Shown: positions 13,650-31,280 of the stretch, one piece after another
Layout of the letters: each line of letters opens with the position of its first letter
Numbering within the stretch: position 1 is the stretch's first letter
DNA from: Micavibrio sp.
GTDB taxonomy: Bacteria > Pseudomonadota > Alphaproteobacteria > Micavibrionales > Micavibrionaceae
Direction: 5' to 3'
DNA length: 35,576 nt
Assembly (NCBI GenBank): GCA_002695035.1
Contig: NZNU01000056.1
Location: forward strand, 18,109-53,684
Translations under genes and position numbers: made by a program
Notes under the pieces: generated by a model
Databases searched by the model: none
Seen by the model: only the letters and a program-made list of their open reading frames with translations
Told to the model about the DNA's origin: nothing

Positions 13650-14138
13650 TTAATCGTCTTTTTTCGACTTAGCTGTCATCCCTGTGAAAGCATTCAGAGT
13701 ATTTTGAAACATCGCCATATTTTGACGCGTCATTTCCTCCATCATTTGAAGCGGCATCATGCCACCACTTAAAGATTTTGTCATTTGTTCCCTAAGGTCT
13801 TCCTGATGCTGCACAAAGTTTTCAAGCGACTGCTCAAGATAATTTGGCAGAAGCGGTTGCATCGCATCACCGTAAAACCCAATGATTTGCTTTAAGAAGT
13901 TGAGCGGAAGAACATTTTCGCCTTTAGACTCTTTTTCAACAATAATTTGTGTTAGAACGGGTTTGGTTAAATCTTCGCCGCTTTTGGCATCAATGACTAC
14001 AAAATCATGGCCTTCTTTTACCATGTCATAAAGATCTTCCAATGTAACATAGGAGCTGCGGCCAGTATCATATAGACGTCGGTTCGCGTATTTTTTGACA
14101 ATCGTTGGTTTGTCCTGTTTCTTTTTTGCTGCAGACAT
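13650..14138 (-). CDS. phaR: Polyhydroxyalkanoate synthesis repressor PhaR
   Basis: PhaR represses PHA genes and is released when it binds nascent PHB granules, linking phasin and synthase expression to polymer formation. The 162-residue protein shows the conserved DNA-binding region IVKKYANRRLYDTGRSSYVT (PHB_acc_N) at about residues 14-33, then GEDLTKPVLTQIIVEKE, then the accumulation-regulator repeat with LKQIIGFYGDAMQPLLPNYL. Length is a little under the alphaproteobacterial norm. AGGAAGG lies about 8 bases before the ATG. It is divergent from phaC, with a 123-base spacer carrying a promoter and a palindrome that is its likely operator. Confidence 0.95.
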   Translation of the reverse strand: MSAAKKKQDKPTIVKKYANRRLYDTGRSSYVTLEDLYDMVKEGHDFVVIDAKSGEDLTKPVLTQIIVEKESKGENVLPLNFLKQIIGFYGDAMQPLLPNYLEQSLENFVQHQEDLREQMTKSLSGGMMPLQMMEEMTRQNMAMFQNTLNAFTGMTAKSKKDD

Positions 14139-20755: not shown

Positions 20756-22177
20756 TTAGTCGCGGGGCTTAACCATGTCTTCCGGCTTTATCCAGTCTTT
20801 GAACTGCTCTTCTGTGAGCAGGCCTAGTTCAACACCGGCCTCTTTCAAAGTTGTACCGTCGGCATGCGCTTTCTTGGCGATTTTGGCCGCATTATCGTAC
20901 CCAATGTGAGGGTTGAGGGCTGTGACCAGCATCAGGCTTTCATGTAACAGTTTTTCGATACGTGCCTCATTTGCTTCAATTCCCTCAACACAGTTTTCGG
21001 TAAAGCTGTTGCACGCATCAGCAATCAGTCGGATAGATTGCAACACGTTATAGATAATAACGGGTTTAAATACATTCAGCTCGAAATGGCCATTGCTGCC
21101 CGCGACGCTTACTGCTGTATTATTGCCCATCACCTGTGCGCAAACCATTGTTAATGCCTCGCATTGTGTCGGGTTAACCTTTCCGGGCATGATTGATGAG
21201 CCTGGTTCATTGGCGGGTAAGTTGATTTCGCCAATCCCGCATCTTGGGCCTGAGCCCAGAAGGCGAATGTCATTGGCTATTTTCATTAACGATACCGCCA
21301 AGACATTCAATGCGCCTGACAGCTCTACCATGGCATCATGCGCTGCAAGAGCTTCGAATTTATTAGGAGCGGTTTTGAAATCAAGTCCTGTGATTTTGGC
21401 AACATGGGCCGCAAATTTTTCTGCAAATCCAGCCTTGCTGTTGATGCCCGTACCAACAGCCGTACCACCTTGTGCAAGTTCCATAACGCGTGGCAGAGTA
21501 CCTTTTATACGTTCGATGCCATATTCCATTTGTTTGGCGTAACCCGAGAACTCCTGACCTAGCGTCAAAGGCGTTGCATCCTGCAAATGTGTGCGTCCGA
21601 TTTTTACGATTTTTTCAAAAGATTTGGCCTTTTTATCCAATGCATTGTGCAGTGTTTTAAGGGCAGGCAAAAGTGATTGGTGGACTTCTTGTCCTGCGGC
21701 AATATACATGGCGGTCGGAAAAGTATCGTTGGAAGATTGCCCCATATTGACGTGATCATTGGGGTGAACAGGGGACTTGCCGCCGCGCGTGCCTTCCAAT
21801 GCCTCATTAGCAATCCCGGCAATGACCTCGTTCGTGTTCATGTTTGATTGTGTGCCTGAACCAGTTTGCCACACGACAAGGGGAAATTCATCCAAACGCG
21901 CTTCGTCTATAATTTCATCGGCGGCGCTGACGATAGCATCTCCGATTTTTTTATCTAAGACGCCCATCTCCATATTTGTCAAAGCCGCAGCTTTTTTTAC
22001 AAGTCCCAGAGCCTTAATCAAAGGAACGGGCATGGTTTCTGTGCCAATCTTGAAATTCTCACGAGAGCGCTGTGTCTGAGCTCCCCAATAATGGTTTGCG
22101 GGAACTTCTATCTTACCAATAGAGTCGCTTTCTACTCTTGTATCACTTGAATTTTGAGAGAGGGCAGCTTCGGACAT
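20756..22177 (-). CDS. fumC: Class II fumarate hydratase
   Basis: Iron-free, oxidation-resistant fumarase that interconverts fumarate and L-malate in the TCA cycle. The 473-residue protein has the superfamily signature [11 protein letters not shown] at about residues 326-336, the substrate-binding [13 protein letters not shown] (about 105-117), and [17 protein letters not shown] with the active-site His-Leu-Gln. Length is normal with a short N-terminal extension of about 15 residues. AGAAAGG precedes the ATG. Divergent from the SIS-domain gene across an 89-base spacer. Confidence 0.97.
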
Positions 22178-22266: not shown

Positions 22267-23886
22267 ATGTCTGTAAATCTGGATAAATTAAAGACCGAAG
22301 CCATATCAGAGTCAGCCAAAGGCATGGACACTTTGCCTACGCTGGATCTGCTTAAGCTTATGATGGTCTCTCAAAAAGATGCTGTAAAAGCAGTGAAAAA
22401 GAACCTCCCTGACATTGAAAAAGCGGTTAAAGCTGCCGCAGCCAAGCTGGAAGCGGAGGATGGCGTTTTGAGGTATGTTGGCTCAGGAACTTCAGGGCGA
22501 CTTGGGCTGCAAGACGGGATAGAGCTGGCGCCTACTTTTGGTTGGCCTTTGGAGAGGGTTGGTGTGGCTATGTCTGGTGGAAAACAAGCCATAATCAAGG
22601 CGATGGAAGGCGCAGAAGATGACAGGGACGCTGCGGTCAAGGATTTGGAAGAGGCCGGTTTTAGCAAACATGATGTAGTCATCGCACTTTCGGCAAGCGG
22701 TCGTACACCTTATGTGGTATCGGCTGCTGAACATGCAGGCTCTCATGGGGCTTTGACTATCGGAATTTCAAATAATGACGGCTCACCACTGCAATCTGCA
22801 TCCCAGTTCGCTTTCTATCTTGATACCAGTCCTGAACCTATAGGCGGGTCGACACGGATGAGTGCCGGAACGTCTCAAAAGATTATACTGAACCTTATAA
22901 CATCGGCAATTATGTTTGAGTTGGGATATGTGTCCAGGGGACAGGTGGAGGGTTTGATAAAATCAACCGATGGCTTGAGAGAATCGAAGACATATAGCTG
23001 GAAACCTTCCACACGCAATTTTTTGGATATGATGCTTGAAAGCCAAGAGCATGCCGTAAATTGTCTGGATGAGGCTCTTCCCTCTATAGCAAAGGCAGCA
23101 GATGCCGTTGCGGTATCACTGAATGTCCCTGACGCCAAGCTTGTTTGTGCAGGGGCGGGAACAACGGCGCGTACCGGAACGCAGGATTTCGTTGAATTAC
23201 AGCCCACTTTCGGATGGCCGCTTGAAAAAGTCAGCTACCTCATAGCGGGAGGAGAGGAATCGCTTACCACGCCTTTAAAATGGGTTGGGCTGGATGCTGA
23301 TGAGGGTGTCGCGCATGTTAGGGATGAAAACCTGTCAACTAAGGATGTCTTTGTTCTGGCCTCGATCAGCGGTTACACAACTTATACTTTGGCGATAGAA
23401 GATTACGCGCGGGATACATTAAAAGCCTGTACTGTTGCTATCGCAAATTCAGAAGATTCCCCTCTTTTAAAAAATGCCCAATACCCGATATTGCTTTCTT
23501 CCAGTGATAAACCGACGGATACCTTGACGAGGCTTGGCTCGGGCACGGCACAGAAGGTTGCCTTCAATTTATTTTCTTCGGCTGTCATGGTCAGGCGGGG
23601 GCATGTCTATGACGGCTATATGGTTGATGTGCAGCTTAACAATGAGAAACTTGTTGAGCGAGCCTTGAGAATGGTTGAAGCGATTACAGGGTGTAACCGC
23701 AAAGAAGCCGAGAGGGTTTTAAATCTTTCAGGTGAGGGGAAGCACCGTAATGTTAAAAAAGCTGTCCTAATCCATTACGGTATTAATACGGCTGATGTTG
23801 AAGAATATTTGAACACACATGGCGGCAATTTGAGACGTGCTTTAAGGGCCTTGAAGCAAGAAAAAAAACCTATTTTAGAATTGTGA
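22267..23886 (+). CDS. MurQ-like protein with two tandem SIS modules
   Basis: MurQ etherase removes lactate from N-acetylmuramate-6-phosphate in cell-wall recycling; normal MurQ is about 300 residues with one SIS domain. This 539-residue protein holds two related copies. Copy 1 (about 15-235) has VGSGTSGRLG, E86 in IELAPTFGWPLERV and E117 in MEGAEDD (the MurQ catalytic Glu83 and Glu114 positions), LSASGRTPYV and GGSTRMSAGTSQK. Copy 2 (about 250-539) has CAGAGTTARTGTQD, E310 in VELQPTFGWPLEKV and RLGSGTAQK. It has lost ASGRTPY (SISGYTT) and the second Glu, but keeps the VDVQLNNEKL strand and the C-terminal helical domain ending THGGNLRRAL. The shared PTFGWPLE(R/K)V points to duplication. One catalytic and one structural or ligand-sensing half is plausible. 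No other wall-recycling gene is nearby. The 3' end overlaps purK by 17 bases. Confidence 0.8.
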   Translation: MSVNLDKLKTEAISESAKGMDTLPTLDLLKLMMVSQKDAVKAVKKNLPDIEKAVKAAAAKLEAEDGVLRYVGSGTSGRLGLQDGIELAPTFGWPLERVGVAMSGGKQAIIKAMEGAEDDRDAAVKDLEEAGFSKHDVVIALSASGRTPYVVSAAEHAGSHGALTIGISNNDGSPLQSASQFAFYLDTSPEPIGGSTRMSAGTSQKIILNLITSAIMFELGYVSRGQVEGLIKSTDGLRESKTYSWKPSTRNFLDMMLESQEHAVNCLDEALPSIAKAADAVAVSLNVPDAKLVCAGAGTTARTGTQDFVELQPTFGWPLEKVSYLIAGGEESLTTPLKWVGLDADEGVAHVRDENLSTKDVFVLASISGYTTYTLAIEDYARDTLKACTVAIANSEDSPLLKNAQYPILLSSSDKPTDTLTRLGSGTAQKVAFNLFSSAVMVRRGHVYDGYMVDVQLNNEKLVERALRMVEAITGCNRKEAERVLNLSGEGKHRNVKKAVLIHYGINTADVEEYLNTHGGNLRRALRALKQEKKPILEL

Positions 23887-24931
23887 CATGCCCCATTTTA
23901 CGGCCCGGTCTGATTTCTTTTTTACCATAGAGATGAAGATGGGTTTTTTCCTGTCGCAAATATTTATCACATTCTTTTACGTCATCTCCAATCAGGTTGA
24001 TCATCTCTGCTTTTGAATGTTGATAAGGCGGGATCACATCCAGAGCGCAAACGGCACGCACATGCTGATCAAATTGTGAAAAGTCACAGGCGTCTATAGT
24101 CCAGTGACCGGAATTATGAGGACGTGGTGCAATTTCATTGGCTAAAACCTCTCCTTCAGCAGTCACAAAATACTCCACTGACAAAACGCCTATCAGATCT
24201 ATTTCATTTGCGACTTTATAAGCGGCTTCTATTGCTTTTCCGAGTATTTCAGGCGGCATTTCTGCGGGGGCAATTGTTTTATGAAGGATGTGATTTTTAT
24301 GTTCATTCACTACAGGGGGGTAATTAACGAGCCTGCCCGTTTTGTCACGCGCTACAATCACCGATATCTCTGCCATAAAATCAACGATCTCTTCGGCAAT
24401 TAGATCAGTAGTTTTTAAGCTTCCAAATTCTTTTTTAAAGTCTTGATCTATTTTAACTTTTACTTGCCCTTTACCATCGTAACCGAAACGGTTCGTTTTT
24501 ATAATAAATGCGCTTTGGTTTGTTTCTTTGAATAGTTTTTCAACATCTTCAACACGTGAGACAGGATGCCAGTTTGTAGTTTTTATACCAAGATCATTGA
24601 GAAAGGTTTTTTCACGTATGCGATGTTGTGAAATTTCCAGCAATCTCTCATCGGGTAGCACTGGCTTAAATTTCTGAAGGTGCTTTATGCTCTCCAGCGG
24701 CATGTTTTCAAATTCATATGTAATGATATCAACATGTTGCGCAAATTGCTCCAATGCTTCAAGGTCATCCAGTGCGCCATTGATTGTTTTATAGGCTACT
24801 TGTGATGCAGGCGCATCCTGCTCATCAGTATAAATAATAACCTTGATGCCGAGTTCTGCCGCTGACATGGCACTCATTTTTTCAAGCTGTCCACCGCCCA
24901 GTATCCCCAATATCAGATCGTGATTGAACAT
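23870..24931 (-). CDS. purK: N5-carboxyaminoimidazole ribonucleotide synthase
   Basis: ATP-grasp enzyme that uses bicarbonate and ATP to turn AIR into N5-CAIR in purine synthesis; PurE then makes CAIR. The 353-residue protein shows GILGGGQLEKM at the N-terminus (family norm GGGQLGRM, so E-K replaces G-R), ITYEFENMP, the ATP-grasp stretch IIKTNRFGYDGKGQ, and EVLANEIAPRPHNSGHWTID, the hallmark of PurK. It starts 10 bases after the purE stop, an operon arrangement. The stop overlaps the end of the double SIS gene. Confidence 0.95.
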   Translation of the reverse strand: MFNHDLILGILGGGQLEKMSAMSAAELGIKVIIYTDEQDAPASQVAYKTINGALDDLEALEQFAQHVDIITYEFENMPLESIKHLQKFKPVLPDERLLEISQHRIREKTFLNDLGIKTTNWHPVSRVEDVEKLFKETNQSAFIIKTNRFGYDGKGQVKVKIDQDFKKEFGSLKTTDLIAEEIVDFMAEISVIVARDKTGRLVNYPPVVNEHKNHILHKTIAPAEMPPEILGKAIEAAYKVANEIDLIGVLSVEYFVTAEGEVLANEIAPRPHNSGHWTIDACDFSQFDQHVRAVCALDVIPPYQHSKAEMINLIGDDVKECDKYLRQEKTHLHLYGKKEIRPGRKMGHVTILK

Positions 24932-27733: not shown

Positions 27734-28297
27734 ATGACCAACGCCTCAATGCTGTATGTACAGCAATCCCTGGCACCTGATGAGGAAATCATACATATAG
27801 GCCATTTTCACTGGATGTATGATGTTAAGGCTGTCATGAATATAGTTTGGGGCTGTATCTTTTCGCTGATGATTATTTTCGGCGCACTTCTTATCCAGAA
27901 CAAAGTCGGCATTAGTTTGAGCAGTTACCGCGTCGGAGCGGGTGGCGGCTGGTTTGATATGTTCCGTGCTTTACACCCTGGGATAAAGCTTGTGGCTTTT
28001 TTATGCTTCCTTTTTGGTCTTTTTCGCTTTGCACAGATGATGGTATTTAAGGCCACAACTGAAATTGCAATCACAACGTCTCGCTTGATTTACAAACGTG
28101 GCCTGATCGCAAGAAATGTCGGGGAAATGAGCATTGACCGCATAGAGGGCGTTAATGTTTTGCAGGGCATTTTAGGTCGTATCTTTGATTATGGTCGGGT
28201 TCTTGTCAGAGGAATGGGGGTAGGGGAGGTTATCTTGCCTCCTTTGGCAAGACCTGTGGTCTTCCGAAAGGCGATTGAAAAAGCCAGGATGTCATGA
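27734..28297 (+). CDS. Bacterial PH-domain (bPH2) membrane protein, first of a pair
   Basis: A 187-residue membrane protein with two hydrophobic segments (about 33-54 and 83-105), then a C-terminal bacterial pleckstrin-homology-like domain: TTEIAITTSRLIYKRGLIAR, then MSIDRIEGVNVLQGILGRIF and GRVLVRGMG. The pattern (ITTSRLI, I.RIE.V.V.Q...GRIF.YG.V.V.G.G) is that of the bPH2/DUF304 family, whose role is unknown. It follows pfk by 2 bases and overlaps the next gene by 4 bases (ATGA), so it is part of a tight operon. Confidence 0.85.
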   Translation: MTNASMLYVQQSLAPDEEIIHIGHFHWMYDVKAVMNIVWGCIFSLMIIFGALLIQNKVGISLSSYRVGAGGGWFDMFRALHPGIKLVAFLCFLFGLFRFAQMMVFKATTEIAITTSRLIYKRGLIARNVGEMSIDRIEGVNVLQGILGRIFDYGRVLVRGMGVGEVILPPLARPVVFRKAIEKARMS

Positions 28298-28812
28298 CCA
28301 GAGATAGAAGAAGAGTAAAAAATAATCCGATTAAAAACCCCCGTCGCTTATCGCGCGACCCCAGGCTTGCAGATATAGGTCTGCGAGAGGGGGAAACAAT
28401 TTTGATTAACGGCATCATTTCTCCCGGTATTTACTGGAAAAGTCTTTTTGTTTTGTTGCTAGCGCTACTTGTCGGGTTGTTGGCATGGCAGTTGGGGGCT
28501 TTGTTGCTTATTGTTTCCCTCATAATGTTTGGTGTTGCCTTTCTCACACAAAAATTCCTGTTGCTTGTACTTACTGATCACAGGGTCATTGTTCGTTATG
28601 GTATAATAAATCTTGAAACCACTCAGATACGTTTTTCATCACTCGAAAGTGTGGAGGTGCAGCGTACTTTGGTAGGACAACTCCTCGGTTATGCGAGTGT
28701 CGTATTAACGGGGACGGGTACGAGGGTGCTCGTAGTGCCTTTCATTGCCAATGCCAATCAGTTTAGAAATGCTCTGGATGAAATTTTGTTCAGGCAAGAT
28801 GAAGTTAAATAA
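28294..28812 (+). CDS. Bacterial PH-domain (bPH2) membrane protein, second of a pair
   Basis: A 172-residue protein with a basic N-terminus (about 1-25), two adjacent hydrophobic stretches (about 48-62 and 64-86) and a C-terminal PH-like domain: LTDHRVIVRYGIINLETTQI, FSSLESVEVQRTLVGQLLGY, VVLTGTGTRVLVVPFI. It is related to the preceding protein but not a recent copy. The 4-base overlap suggests coupled translation and perhaps a heteromeric membrane complex. The L,D-transpeptidase gene begins 21 bases after its stop. Confidence 0.85.
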   Translation: MTRDRRRVKNNPIKNPRRLSRDPRLADIGLREGETILINGIISPGIYWKSLFVLLLALLVGLLAWQLGALLLIVSLIMFGVAFLTQKFLLLVLTDHRVIVRYGIINLETTQIRFSSLESVEVQRTLVGQLLGYASVVLTGTGTRVLVVPFIANANQFRNALDEILFRQDEVK

Positions 28813-28833
28813 ACCACAAAAGTAAAATTTCGT

Positions 28834-30438
28834 ATGTCATTAAATTTTTTTAACCGGGTCGTAACGGCTTCCCTAGCTTTACTTATTTTTTCTCAACCTG
28901 TTTTGGCGCAAAGCTTCTCGCAAGACTTACAAAAAGCGTTATCACAAGCCTCGGTGAAGGGCCTGGCCTTTGAAGATAAACGGGCTTTTGAGGATTTTTA
29001 CAAAGAAAGGGGTTATGCGCCCTTATGGCGCGATGAGGATGATCGTGAAGAGGCGATAGATATATTGGCAGAATCATGGAGGCATGGCTTTCATCCCGCC
29101 CAATATAATGTGAACGTGTTGAGCTCAATATCCAAGAGTGACCATGTTGAAGATCTGGCGCCTCGGGAAGCCATGTTCAGCGCGGCAGTTGTGAAATATG
29201 CTCGGGATTTAACAGGGATGCGTGTGCCGGCATCTTCAATTAATCAGATTGATTCTTTCTGGCGTCAGCCTTTATCGGCTTATACGGTCTTGTCCCATAT
29301 TGCCAAAAAGCGTGATGCGGAGTCAGCACTTCGTGATTTTGCACCAAGAAATTCTCTTTATAGCGCTTTGCAGGACGAATTAATTGTCCAGATAAAGCGT
29401 GCCTCCAACCCAGATGAAATAGAAAGACTTCTCCCATTAAGTTTCGGCGGGACATTGAAGCCTGGGGATTATCATCGGCGTGTAAATGATTTACGACTGG
29501 TGCTTGATATGCGCAGCGAGCCCCAAAATGAACAATATGACGACAGGTTGTTGCAAGCTGTTATGGCCTTTCAGCAGGATAACGGGCTTGAAACGGACGG
29601 CATATTGGGGCCACAGACACTAGAGGCGCTTAACAGGACAGCCCTGGACAAGATCAAGCAGGTGATTGCCAATCTGGAACGTCTTCGCTGGCAAGAGCCG
29701 AACAGACCGGGCAAATATCTTATTGTGAATATACCGGCCCAAACACTCTGGGCGATAGAAGACGGTCAAACACAGCTTGAAATGCCTGTAATCGTTGGGC
29801 GTCCGGGTCGTGAAACGATGAGCTTTGTAACTCGCGTTACAGGGGTGAGGTTTAATCCCACCTGGACTGTGCCGAGAACAATCAAGTTTGAAGATTACGT
29901 CCCAAAACTTAAAAAAGACCCACTTTATATGGAAGGCAAAAATGTCAGGTTTATTCGTGACGGCCAGACTTTGAACCCGTCTTCTATAAACTGGAATGAG
30001 CTAAATGCCTCTGAGATTAGCCGGATTAGTATGGTGCAGGCCCCTGGCAGTAACAATCCGTTAGGGTATATACGATTGTTAATGCCTAATCGCTATAATA
30101 TATATCTCCATGATACAAATGCTGCGGGGCTTTTTGCGCAATCACTGAGGACTGAAAGTTCCGGGTGTGTGCGCATGTCCGAACCTCGCGCCGTGGCCAG
30201 TTTTATCCTTAAAGACAACGCAGGTTGGAGTGATCAGAATATAGATAACTACCTTTCCGGTGGAGAGATGAGCGATATTCCGGCTGAAAATCCAATACCT
30301 GCATATTTGCTCTATCAATCAATCTGGCAAGATGCCGGACGTGGCTTGGTGTACAGTAACGATATTTACGGATGGGATGAACGGCTTTTCAATGAACTTG
30401 AAAGCAGAAACGAAGTGTTTGTTCCCCGTATTGATTGA
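28834..30438 (+). CDS. L,D-transpeptidase, YcbB/LdtD type
   Basis: Periplasmic enzyme that makes 3-3 (mDAP-mDAP) peptidoglycan cross-links. The 534-residue precursor has a signal peptide (about 1-25, ending VLAQS), an N-terminal scaffold region, a peptidoglycan-binding domain at about 240-270 (AVMAFQQDNGLETDGILGPQ), and the YkuD catalytic domain at about 288-460. H426 (YLHDTNA) and the nucleophile C445 in SSGCVRM are in place; S-S-G-C rather than S-H-G-C is usual for the YcbB branch. Preceded by two membrane PH-domain genes and followed, after a 266-base spacer, by a DUF882/MepK-like endopeptidase gene. The same neighbour pair (ycbB-ycbK) occurs in E. coli. Confidence 0.92.
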   Translation: MSLNFFNRVVTASLALLIFSQPVLAQSFSQDLQKALSQASVKGLAFEDKRAFEDFYKERGYAPLWRDEDDREEAIDILAESWRHGFHPAQYNVNVLSSISKSDHVEDLAPREAMFSAAVVKYARDLTGMRVPASSINQIDSFWRQPLSAYTVLSHIAKKRDAESALRDFAPRNSLYSALQDELIVQIKRASNPDEIERLLPLSFGGTLKPGDYHRRVNDLRLVLDMRSEPQNEQYDDRLLQAVMAFQQDNGLETDGILGPQTLEALNRTALDKIKQVIANLERLRWQEPNRPGKYLIVNIPAQTLWAIEDGQTQLEMPVIVGRPGRETMSFVTRVTGVRFNPTWTVPRTIKFEDYVPKLKKDPLYMEGKNVRFIRDGQTLNPSSINWNELNASEISRISMVQAPGSNNPLGYIRLLMPNRYNIYLHDTNAAGLFAQSLRTESSGCVRMSEPRAVASFILKDNAGWSDQNIDNYLSGGEMSDIPAENPIPAYLLYQSIWQDAGRGLVYSNDIYGWDERLFNELESRNEVFVPRID

Positions 30439-30704
30439 TAAAATTGACGTTAAAATTAAGATAGGTTTAAAAAAAGCCATTTTATACTCATAATATCGTG
30501 ACCCCTTGAAGTCACCGATTTATTGCCATATACTAAAAACATGTGAATGTTCTTCACATTTCTCATTCTTGGACTTTATCAACTTACGGACTCCTGTTAA
30601 TCCTAACAAATCTGTTTTGAATTAGTTCCAATCAATATGTTTTTGGTAATGATCTTTACCTCAAAAATAAAATCAATGTGTAAAAAAGGAACGGGTAGTA
30701 ATTT
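30439..30704. other. 266-base AT-rich spacer before the DUF882 gene
   Basis: No gene seen. It contains a perfect 7-bp inverted repeat with a 5-base loop, ATGTGAA (30541-30547) and TTCACAT (30553-30559), and a shorter one, GTGAC-N8-GTCAC (30499-30516). Neither is followed by a T run long enough for a terminator. They could be binding sites or leader hairpins for the downstream gene. Confidence 0.4.
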
Positions 30705-31280
30705 ATGACTCTGGAAAAATCTTTGCTTGAAGGCACTCTCGACCGCCGCTCACTTCTAAAGGGAAGTCTCACTCTCTCAGCAACAGCAATGATCTCGGCA
30801 ATAGGCGTCAAGCCAGTATGGGCCGCACCAACAGACGGTAGATACACAGTAAATATAGTTAATAAGCATACTCATGAGCGTTTCGAAGGGCTTTACCGCG
30901 TAGGGAATGAATACCTTCCTGAGGCTTTCGAAAACATAAACACGACCCTTCGTGACCACCGGACAGATGAAATTTTCCCGATTGACCCGCGCGTTATTGA
31001 TATTGCTGTGGCTCTTCACAAAATGACAGGCACGCGACGTCCTTTTGAAATTATTTCGGGCTACAGATCTCCCAAAACCAACGCAATGTTGCGTTCAAAC
31101 AGTAGCGCCGTTGCCAAAAAATCTTTGCATATGTCAGGGCAGGCACTGGATATACAAGTTGCCGATGTTCCAATCTCGAGATTGCGTGATGTCGCGATCA
31201 AACTGAAGGCCGGAGGCGTTGGTTACTATCCGAAAAGTAACTTTGTACACGTTGATTCGGGCCGATTTAGAACTTGGTAA
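30705..31280 (+). CDS. Tat-exported DUF882 protein, MepK/YcbK-like murein endopeptidase
   Basis: A 191-residue precursor of the DUF882/peptidase M15 group. E. coli YcbK (MepK) of this group cuts 3-3 and some 4-3 peptidoglycan cross-links. A twin-arginine signal, DRRSLLKGS with R14-R15, is followed by a hydrophobic stretch ending in VWAAP near residue 41, so it is exported folded. Zinc ligands fit M15: H142 and D149 in LHMSGQALDIQV, and H182 in FVHVDSGRFRTW. SGYRSPKTNAML is the conserved preceding loop. Being near an L,D-transpeptidase gene fits a make-and-cut pair for 3-3 links. AAAGGA lies rather far (13 bases) before the ATG, but the Tat motif supports this start. Confidence 0.92.
   Translation: MTLEKSLLEGTLDRRSLLKGSLTLSATAMISAIGVKPVWAAPTDGRYTVNIVNKHTHERFEGLYRVGNEYLPEAFENINTTLRDHRTDEIFPIDPRVIDIAVALHKMTGTRRPFEIISGYRSPKTNAMLRSNSSAVAKKSLHMSGQALDIQVADVPISRLRDVAIKLKAGGVGYYPKSNFVHVDSGRFRTW

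Follow-up and report, generated by a model that had tools for sequence, protein, structure and literature searches.

MurQ, the MurNAc-6-phosphate etherase of cell-wall-sugar recycling, is a homodimer with two pockets. PMC3613411, citing Veiga-da-Cunha 2009 as the key work on this origin, states that GKRP (GCKR) derives from a MurQ-type etherase by loss of activity. GKRP carries two SIS modules and one C-terminal lid per chain (PDB 4bb9, 3w0l, 4lc9) and is a monomer according to the available portion of PMC4109836. The F1P/F6P site described there is built from Gly107, Thr109, Ser110, Glu153, Leu178-Ser183, Gly256, Ser258 and Arg259 of SIS-1, Glu348 and His351 of SIS-2, and Asn512, Lys514, Leu515 and Arg518 of the lid. 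NagS, the GlcNAc-6-phosphate dehydratase of Streptomyces, is a MurQ-related SIS lyase with its pockets between subunits. Crystal structures, as reported in the accessible part of PMC12680351, show two interface cavities in the NagS dimer, each formed by both monomers, with Ser54, Ser119, Ser121 and Glu94 coming from one monomer and Arg64 and Asn228 from the other.

Here we describe a gene in a stretch of 35,576 nucleotides from Micavibrio sp. (the window) whose product has the architecture of GKRP and the residues and probable descent of MurQ, and which we class as a MurQ variant. Judging from the sequence and from analogy with GKRP and NagS, the protein is best explained as a MurNAc-6-phosphate etherase in which the two subunits of the homodimer would be fused in one chain with one composite pocket. 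We give this reading a probability of about 0.72.

The open reading frame (Table 1) begins with ATG, has no internal stop and encodes 539 residues (protein P0001) with two MurQ modules, which does not match the single SIS module in approximately 300 residues that is usual for MurQ etherases. Short frames also lie opposite to the gene on the other strand. With the boundary between the halves chosen by us at residue 243, the MurQ profile NF003915 (cut-off 168 bits) matches residues 1-243 alone with 255.8 bits (E 4e-76) and residues 244-539 alone with 220.2 bits (E 3e-65), bearing out the original prediction of two MurQ modules in one chain. Under the stricter equivalog TIGR00274 (cut-off 302), the whole protein scores 359.6 bits, passing only because both halves add to the score; singly these reach 190.2 and 175.1 bits, below the cut-off. 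The Pfam family GKRP_SIS_N matches as well, but this is not specific for GKRP, since the ordinary one-module MurQ L005 is also matched, with 57.7 bits. GKRP_SIS_2 (PF22198) gave no match at E values up to 1, which is a weak test, since three bacterial GKRP-like frames (one partial) are missed by it too. An assembly artefact is ruled out: the halves are only 34% identical to each other (76/222), and a separate assembly, that of Micavibrio sp. UBA2137 (L003/L028), has a 39%-identical two-module homologue in the same arrangement between the same neighbours. The two-module layout is an architectural variant in which the MurQ sequence features are not lost.

Table 1. Features of the two-module gene and its flanks (window coordinates).
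Feature	Coordinates	Strand	Basis or remark
fumC, left flank of conserved slot	20756..22177	-	gene-order comparison
Two-module MurQ gene	22267..23886	+	539 aa; ORF and NF003915 profile matches
Half 1, residues 1-243: SIS module 1 preceded by the N-terminal segment; lid mostly gone	22267..22995	+	NF003915 255.8 bits
S76, aligns with GKRP S110; putative composite pocket	22492..22494	+	alignment
E86, first MurQ Glu of half 1; by homology would face vestigial pocket	22522..22524	+	inferred from alignment
E117, second MurQ Glu, aligns with GKRP E153; putative composite pocket	22615..22617	+	alignment
S142-A143-S144, phosphate-binding loop; S142 on GKRP S179	22690..22698	+	alignment
G194-S195-T196-R197, aligns with GKRP G256-R259	22846..22857	+	alignment
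Residues 220-243, remnant/linker at expected start of first lid	22924..22995	+	alignment
Half 2 SIS module (approximately residues 244-446)	22996..23604	+	G341 for second Glu; T419 L420 for GS of GSTR
E310, first Glu of half 2; proposed completion of half-1 pocket	23194..23196	+	alignment
G341, at MurQ second Glu position (60/60); mirror pocket broken	23287..23289	+	alignment
C-terminal lid (approximately residues 447-532), sole full lid of chain	23605..23862	+	GKRP-like_C 27.9 bits; helices 460-532 in model
Lid N459, K461, L462, R465, on GKRP N512, K514, L515, R518	23641..23661	+	alignment
purK, right flank of conserved slot, overlaps 3' end of two-module gene by 17 bases	23870..24931	-	gene-order comparison

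The reference for residue conservation was a set of 60 one-module MurQs from the same phylum. As had been read from the sequence originally, half 1 contains E86, E117 and ASGRTPY, while half 2 contains E310 and SISGYTT and has G341 where all 60 reference proteins carry the second Glu. Apart from S73 and S103, half 1 keeps every SIS residue that is shared by 90% or more of the references, but not the lid residues. Only 50 residues follow the GSTR motif in half 1, compared to 121 after the equivalent position in half 2 and a median of 112 in one-module MurQs (n = 60), so that most of the half-1 lid is gone and the C-terminal helical domain is indeed confined to half 2. In the alignment of residues 220-243, the Asn, Lys and Arg of the MurQ lid are replaced by T234, G236 and S240. 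In half 2 the lid and the first Glu remain. Its losses include the second Glu (G341) and the Asp next to it (L342), as well as Pro in ASGxTP (T372) and GS in GSTR (T419, L420). Compared to MurQ structures (PDB 4lzj, 4m0d, 4s12, 1nri), the chain thus has two MurQ modules together with Glu, phosphate loop, GSTR and lid, but one of the two lids is mostly lost and one of the two pockets is broken.

Both halves share PTFGWPLE (window 22531-22560 and 23203-23232), as the original prediction pointed out. The motif occurs in none of the 60 one-module MurQs (PTFGWP in 8/60) and in neither half of the UBA2137 homologue; it is local to the P0001 halves and is therefore not evidence for duplication, and a recent duplication on this ground was dropped. 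Local gene conversion may have produced the likeness, or chance.

To place the GKRP site on the protein, we used an 11-residue offset inferred for the 4mqu construct, and the mapping is supported by the fact that one offset fits all six residues. In phmmer alignments S110, E153, S179, R259 and K514 of GKRP fall on S76, E117, S142, R197 and K461, and GKRP E348 falls on the first MurQ Glu; E310 was equated with E348 through its homologue E86, which aligns with SIS-2. Because the GKRP site maps onto half 1, E310 and the half-2 lid, the pocket is assigned to these parts, and the retained residues appear from the alignments to form a single composite pocket across both halves, as in GKRP, where SIS-1, the SIS-2 Glu and the Asn, Lys, Leu and Arg of the lid make up the site. 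The original prediction had taken E86 and E117 as the catalytic pair. By homology the partner of E117 is probably E310, with E86 lying in the broken pocket; E310 is not a leftover, since the proposed pocket of half 1 uses it. E86 and E117 thus probably do not share a pocket, a situation that had been thought to tell against an etherase but does not refute one when E117 pairs with E310.

Twelve of the 19 residues of the GKRP site recur unchanged in the composite pocket, and ordinary MurQs share most of these; the other seven differ (S73, A143, S144, G145, R146, T196 and P313 in P0001). At 14 pocket positions conserved in at least 54/60 MurQs, the composite pocket keeps 13/14 in both P0001 and UBA2137, while the mirror pocket keeps 7/14 and 6/14, respectively; the Fisher p values of 0.03 and 0.01 are descriptive only, since the 14 positions are not independent, gaps were scored as lost and the half boundaries were set by us. 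The lid Asn position is Cys in UBA2137, and P0001 has S73 where 59/60 MurQs have Ala. E86 is kept in both N-terminal halves, and D83 in one, though the composite-pocket proposal needs neither.

These comparisons bear directly on the original suggestion of an etherase with a built-in regulatory half. In one form of that reading, the mirror pocket, formed by half 2 and E86, would bind a sugar phosphate and tune the active pocket. T299, S366, S368, G369, T421, R422 and E86 are retained in that pocket, and in GKRP the same fold couples ligand to conformation (available portion of PMC4109836). However, in both homologues the mirror pocket lacks its second Glu, GS from GSTR and the greater part of its lid, and half 2 is already required by the proposed first pocket, making a regulatory role unlikely. 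The etherase part of the suggestion holds by inference from the catalytic and ligand residues and from the position of the gene, which is that of a one-module murQ; the regulatory half is not supported, because half 2 supplies the E310 and lid that the proposed active pocket needs. Given that the NagS cavities use both monomers and that the pocket residues are conserved, half 2 is best seen as the partner subunit of an etherase, joined to half 1 by fusion, rather than as an added regulatory half. NagS itself, as far as the accessible part of PMC12680351 goes, differs in being a homodimer of short chains and in having Arg at the first Glu position, as inferred from spacing: Arg64 lies 10 residues after Ser54, and E86 of P0001 10 after S76.

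The predicted structure agrees with a GKRP-like layout, as first proposed. A first model built from a two-row alignment was mediocre (pLDDT 71.8), and GKRP ranks first there too. The second model (pLDDT 92.1, pTM 0.92) was based on an alignment of 60 rows from 31 proteins, namely P0001, UBA2137 and 29 of the 60 MurQs, each of the latter in two overlapping cuts; its second SIS module rests on two sequences, since the rows from MurQs were aligned to half 1 and to the lid. This model matches human GKRP (4bb9) end to end over model residues 1-530, with 492 residues aligned (Z 39.0, rmsd 3.0, 19% identity). MurQ 4m0d superimposes on half 1 with an rmsd of 1.1 over 224 residues, and MurQ 4lzj on half 2 plus lid with an rmsd of 2.0 over 285 residues.

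Such a match, together with a phosphofructokinase (PFK) gene approximately 2.8 kb downstream that keeps its place in the gene order of UBA2137 and of a related genus (G010), might suggest a protein without catalysis that, like GKRP, senses sugar phosphates or inhibits a kinase. A sugar-phosphate sensor was the second reading of the original prediction, and it fits the residues poorly. Half 1 contains both catalytic Glu, the first of which (E86) is Ser in SIS-1 of human GKRP and a gap in 8/8 bacterial GKRP-like proteins, and in sequence the protein is far closer to MurQ, as the NF003915 scores of its halves indicate. In addition, PFK is also in place in two genomes (G003, G025) in which the slot has no murQ match, and the source genome has a separate GKRP-like gene. 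We therefore regard a sensor as very unlikely.

Bacterial GKRP-like two-SIS proteins, judged by match and frame length, are present in about a dozen genomes of the order, and eight were aligned (L011, L012, L013, L015, L016, L017, L052, L055). In all eight, half 1 has the E117 equivalent and GSTR, and half 2 has the Glu and the lid Asn, Lys, Leu and Arg, as in P0001. By contrast, the first Glu of half 1 falls in a gap in these proteins, TEGGE stands in place of SASGR, and their matches to the N-terminal half of P0001 reach only 31-39 bits. Within the same genus, GKRP-like two-SIS proteins are encoded on contig C39 of the source genome (L130, L002; cut by the contig end) and on contig C19 of a third genome, G002 (L129:6336-8018; approximately 560 aa), the latter near a nicotianamine-synthase-like gene and a MarC-family gene. 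In another genome of the order (G074), the GKRP-like gene (L131:6892-8424) overlaps the end of a PIG-L-type deacetylase gene and lies close to a nicotinate phosphoribosyltransferase gene.

Within the order, Micavibrionales, 2/142 genomes have a match spanning both modules, and 10 others have a strong one-module match (E < 1e-40). Matches at or below 1e-30 were found in 52/385 genomes of a class sample and 71/398 of a phylum sample (the samples overlap, both counts include the source genome, and at most 3 candidates were scored per genome); among the matches listed, no place except the source gene spans both modules. Scanning 84,980 species genomes with two short peptide patterns, which may miss distant forms and may leave out the source genome, returned 14 relatives: the UBA2137 two-module gene, 12 one-module genes and one (L038) cut at a contig start. 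Among viral contigs the patterns matched four times, with no relative. G002, which is the genus's third genome and 66% complete, lacks both the gene and purK, and is therefore uninformative on the gene's presence. We found no description of a two-module MurQ in the literature searched; subscription papers fell outside that search and may hold a prior mention.

Two other kinds of candidate were considered and rejected. The first was a split, two-subunit form in class family f116: L068 and L076 have no same-strand second half within the 3.7 kb examined. Both are one-module MurQs with a shortened lid, and the gene downstream is, by eye, AmpG-type transporter-like. The second comprised 11 MurQs in long frames (415-767 aa; L050, L071, L086-L094), each of which turned out to have a single module. 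Pfam scans of three of these found no family in the additional stretches of L071 and L087, and one in that of L091. L091:1493-3352 encodes a BadF/BadG-type ATPase domain fused ahead of MurQ, perhaps a kinase-etherase fusion.

The gene occupies a conserved slot. The order phaC-phaA-phaB-AsmA-fumC-X-purK-purE-PFK is common to the window and G010, and UBA2137 has AsmA-fumC-X-purK-purE-PFK as in the window. At X, the window and UBA2137 carry the two-module gene, and G010 carries a one-module MurQ. The 3.2 kb upstream of the UBA2137 AsmA gene have no pha gene match and contain instead a homologue of window frame 13650-14138, and an inositol-phosphatase-type gene between purE and PFK of the window was matched in neither UBA2137 nor G010. 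In G003 and G025, the matches to fumC and purK are separated by 0.3 and 0.7 kb in which nothing matches murQ, and G025 has a MurQ elsewhere in the genome, outside this slot. For G004, the stretch yielded a match to purK alone, and the genome has no MurQ match. Downstream of PFK (window 27734-31280) are genes for two bacterial PH-domain proteins, an L,D-transpeptidase with a peptidoglycan-binding domain and an M15-type peptidase, a cell-wall neighbourhood whose order is partly kept in relatives.

Since a one-module MurQ sits in the same slot of G010, the fusion is most simply explained as an internal duplication of the resident murQ. In a tree of 64 modules, the N-terminal halves of P0001 and UBA2137 pair (99/87), as do the C-terminal halves (100/99), so that the fusion is older than the split between the two lineages. 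All four halves lie together on one side of a branch (96/83), opposite the 60 MurQs, and have end branches of 0.94-2.85 compared to a median of 0.4. In a second tree with eight GKRP-like proteins and 26 MurQs, the four halves fall amid MurQs from the same order and class (89/91, a branch without a star), and the branches that lead to the GKRP-like halves measure 3.7 and 5.4 changes per column. The trees thus place the halves with MurQ, and not within unrelated SIS families as the original prediction had allowed for. AU tests rejected neither a grouping of the tandem halves with GKRP-like halves (p 0.32, 0.37) nor a single clade of the four halves (p 0.45). By sequence the descent looks to be that of MurQ, with the trees compatible with a two-module ancestor shared with GKRP-like proteins, and an origin separate from GKRP is favoured by sequence and genomic position without being proven by the trees.

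In the fused-dimer reading, an ancestral murQ between fumC and purK would have undergone tandem duplication and fusion, and the first copy would have lost most of its lid. The kept pocket would take phosphate loop, GSTR and E117 from half 1, and E310 and the closing lid residues N459, K461, L462 and R465 from half 2, while the other pocket of the former dimer would have decayed. Each chain would then convert MurNAc-6-phosphate to GlcNAc-6-phosphate and D-lactate in one pocket, an activity and a substrate that we infer from the residues described above.

AnmK is present in 12/14 genomes checked, including G004 and UBA2137, the latter having no other MurQ match; it was not found in the source genome (95.65% complete) nor in G002. 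Since G004 has AnmK and no MurQ match, AnmK is not a reliable marker for the use of MurQ. Both two-module genomes encode a NagZ-type glucosaminidase that scores below the curated cut-off (196.1 and 188.6 compared to 207 bits). NagA is the usual user of GlcNAc-6-phosphate, and was found in 0/8 genomes of the order with TIGR00221 (G000, G001, G002, G004, G010, G023, G025, G067) and in 0/5 with PF22643, although GlcNAc-6-phosphate is what MurQ makes. This result does not bear on the fusion, because NagA was also not found where MurQ has one module.

The missing NagA and the AnmK not found in the source genome, like the fast evolution of the tandem halves, could also point to a MurQ-fold lyase acting on another phospho-amino-sugar, as NagS does. 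Set against this, the MurQ-invariant Glu residues are kept in the composite pocket, whereas NagS would have Arg at the first Glu position (placed by spacing, from the accessible part of PMC12680351), AnmK is present in UBA2137, and NagA is missing also beside one-module MurQ. We consider a different substrate distinctly unlikely and keep to the fused MurNAc-6-phosphate etherase.

More speculatively, the protein could be a living, still catalytic counterpart of the step from MurQ to GKRP, in which a tandem fusion would have retained one composite etherase pocket, with the freed mirror pocket and the lid geometry now regulating cell-wall recycling by sugar phosphate, an improbable scenario on present evidence. 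Because the one-module, two-module and GKRP-like forms all occur in one order, the route from MurQ to GKRP becomes testable, and the question arises whether fusion and loss of one pocket came before loss of catalysis. For MurQ itself, the composite pocket, if true, makes a prediction: each pocket of the homodimer would draw its lid and one of its Glu residues from the other subunit.
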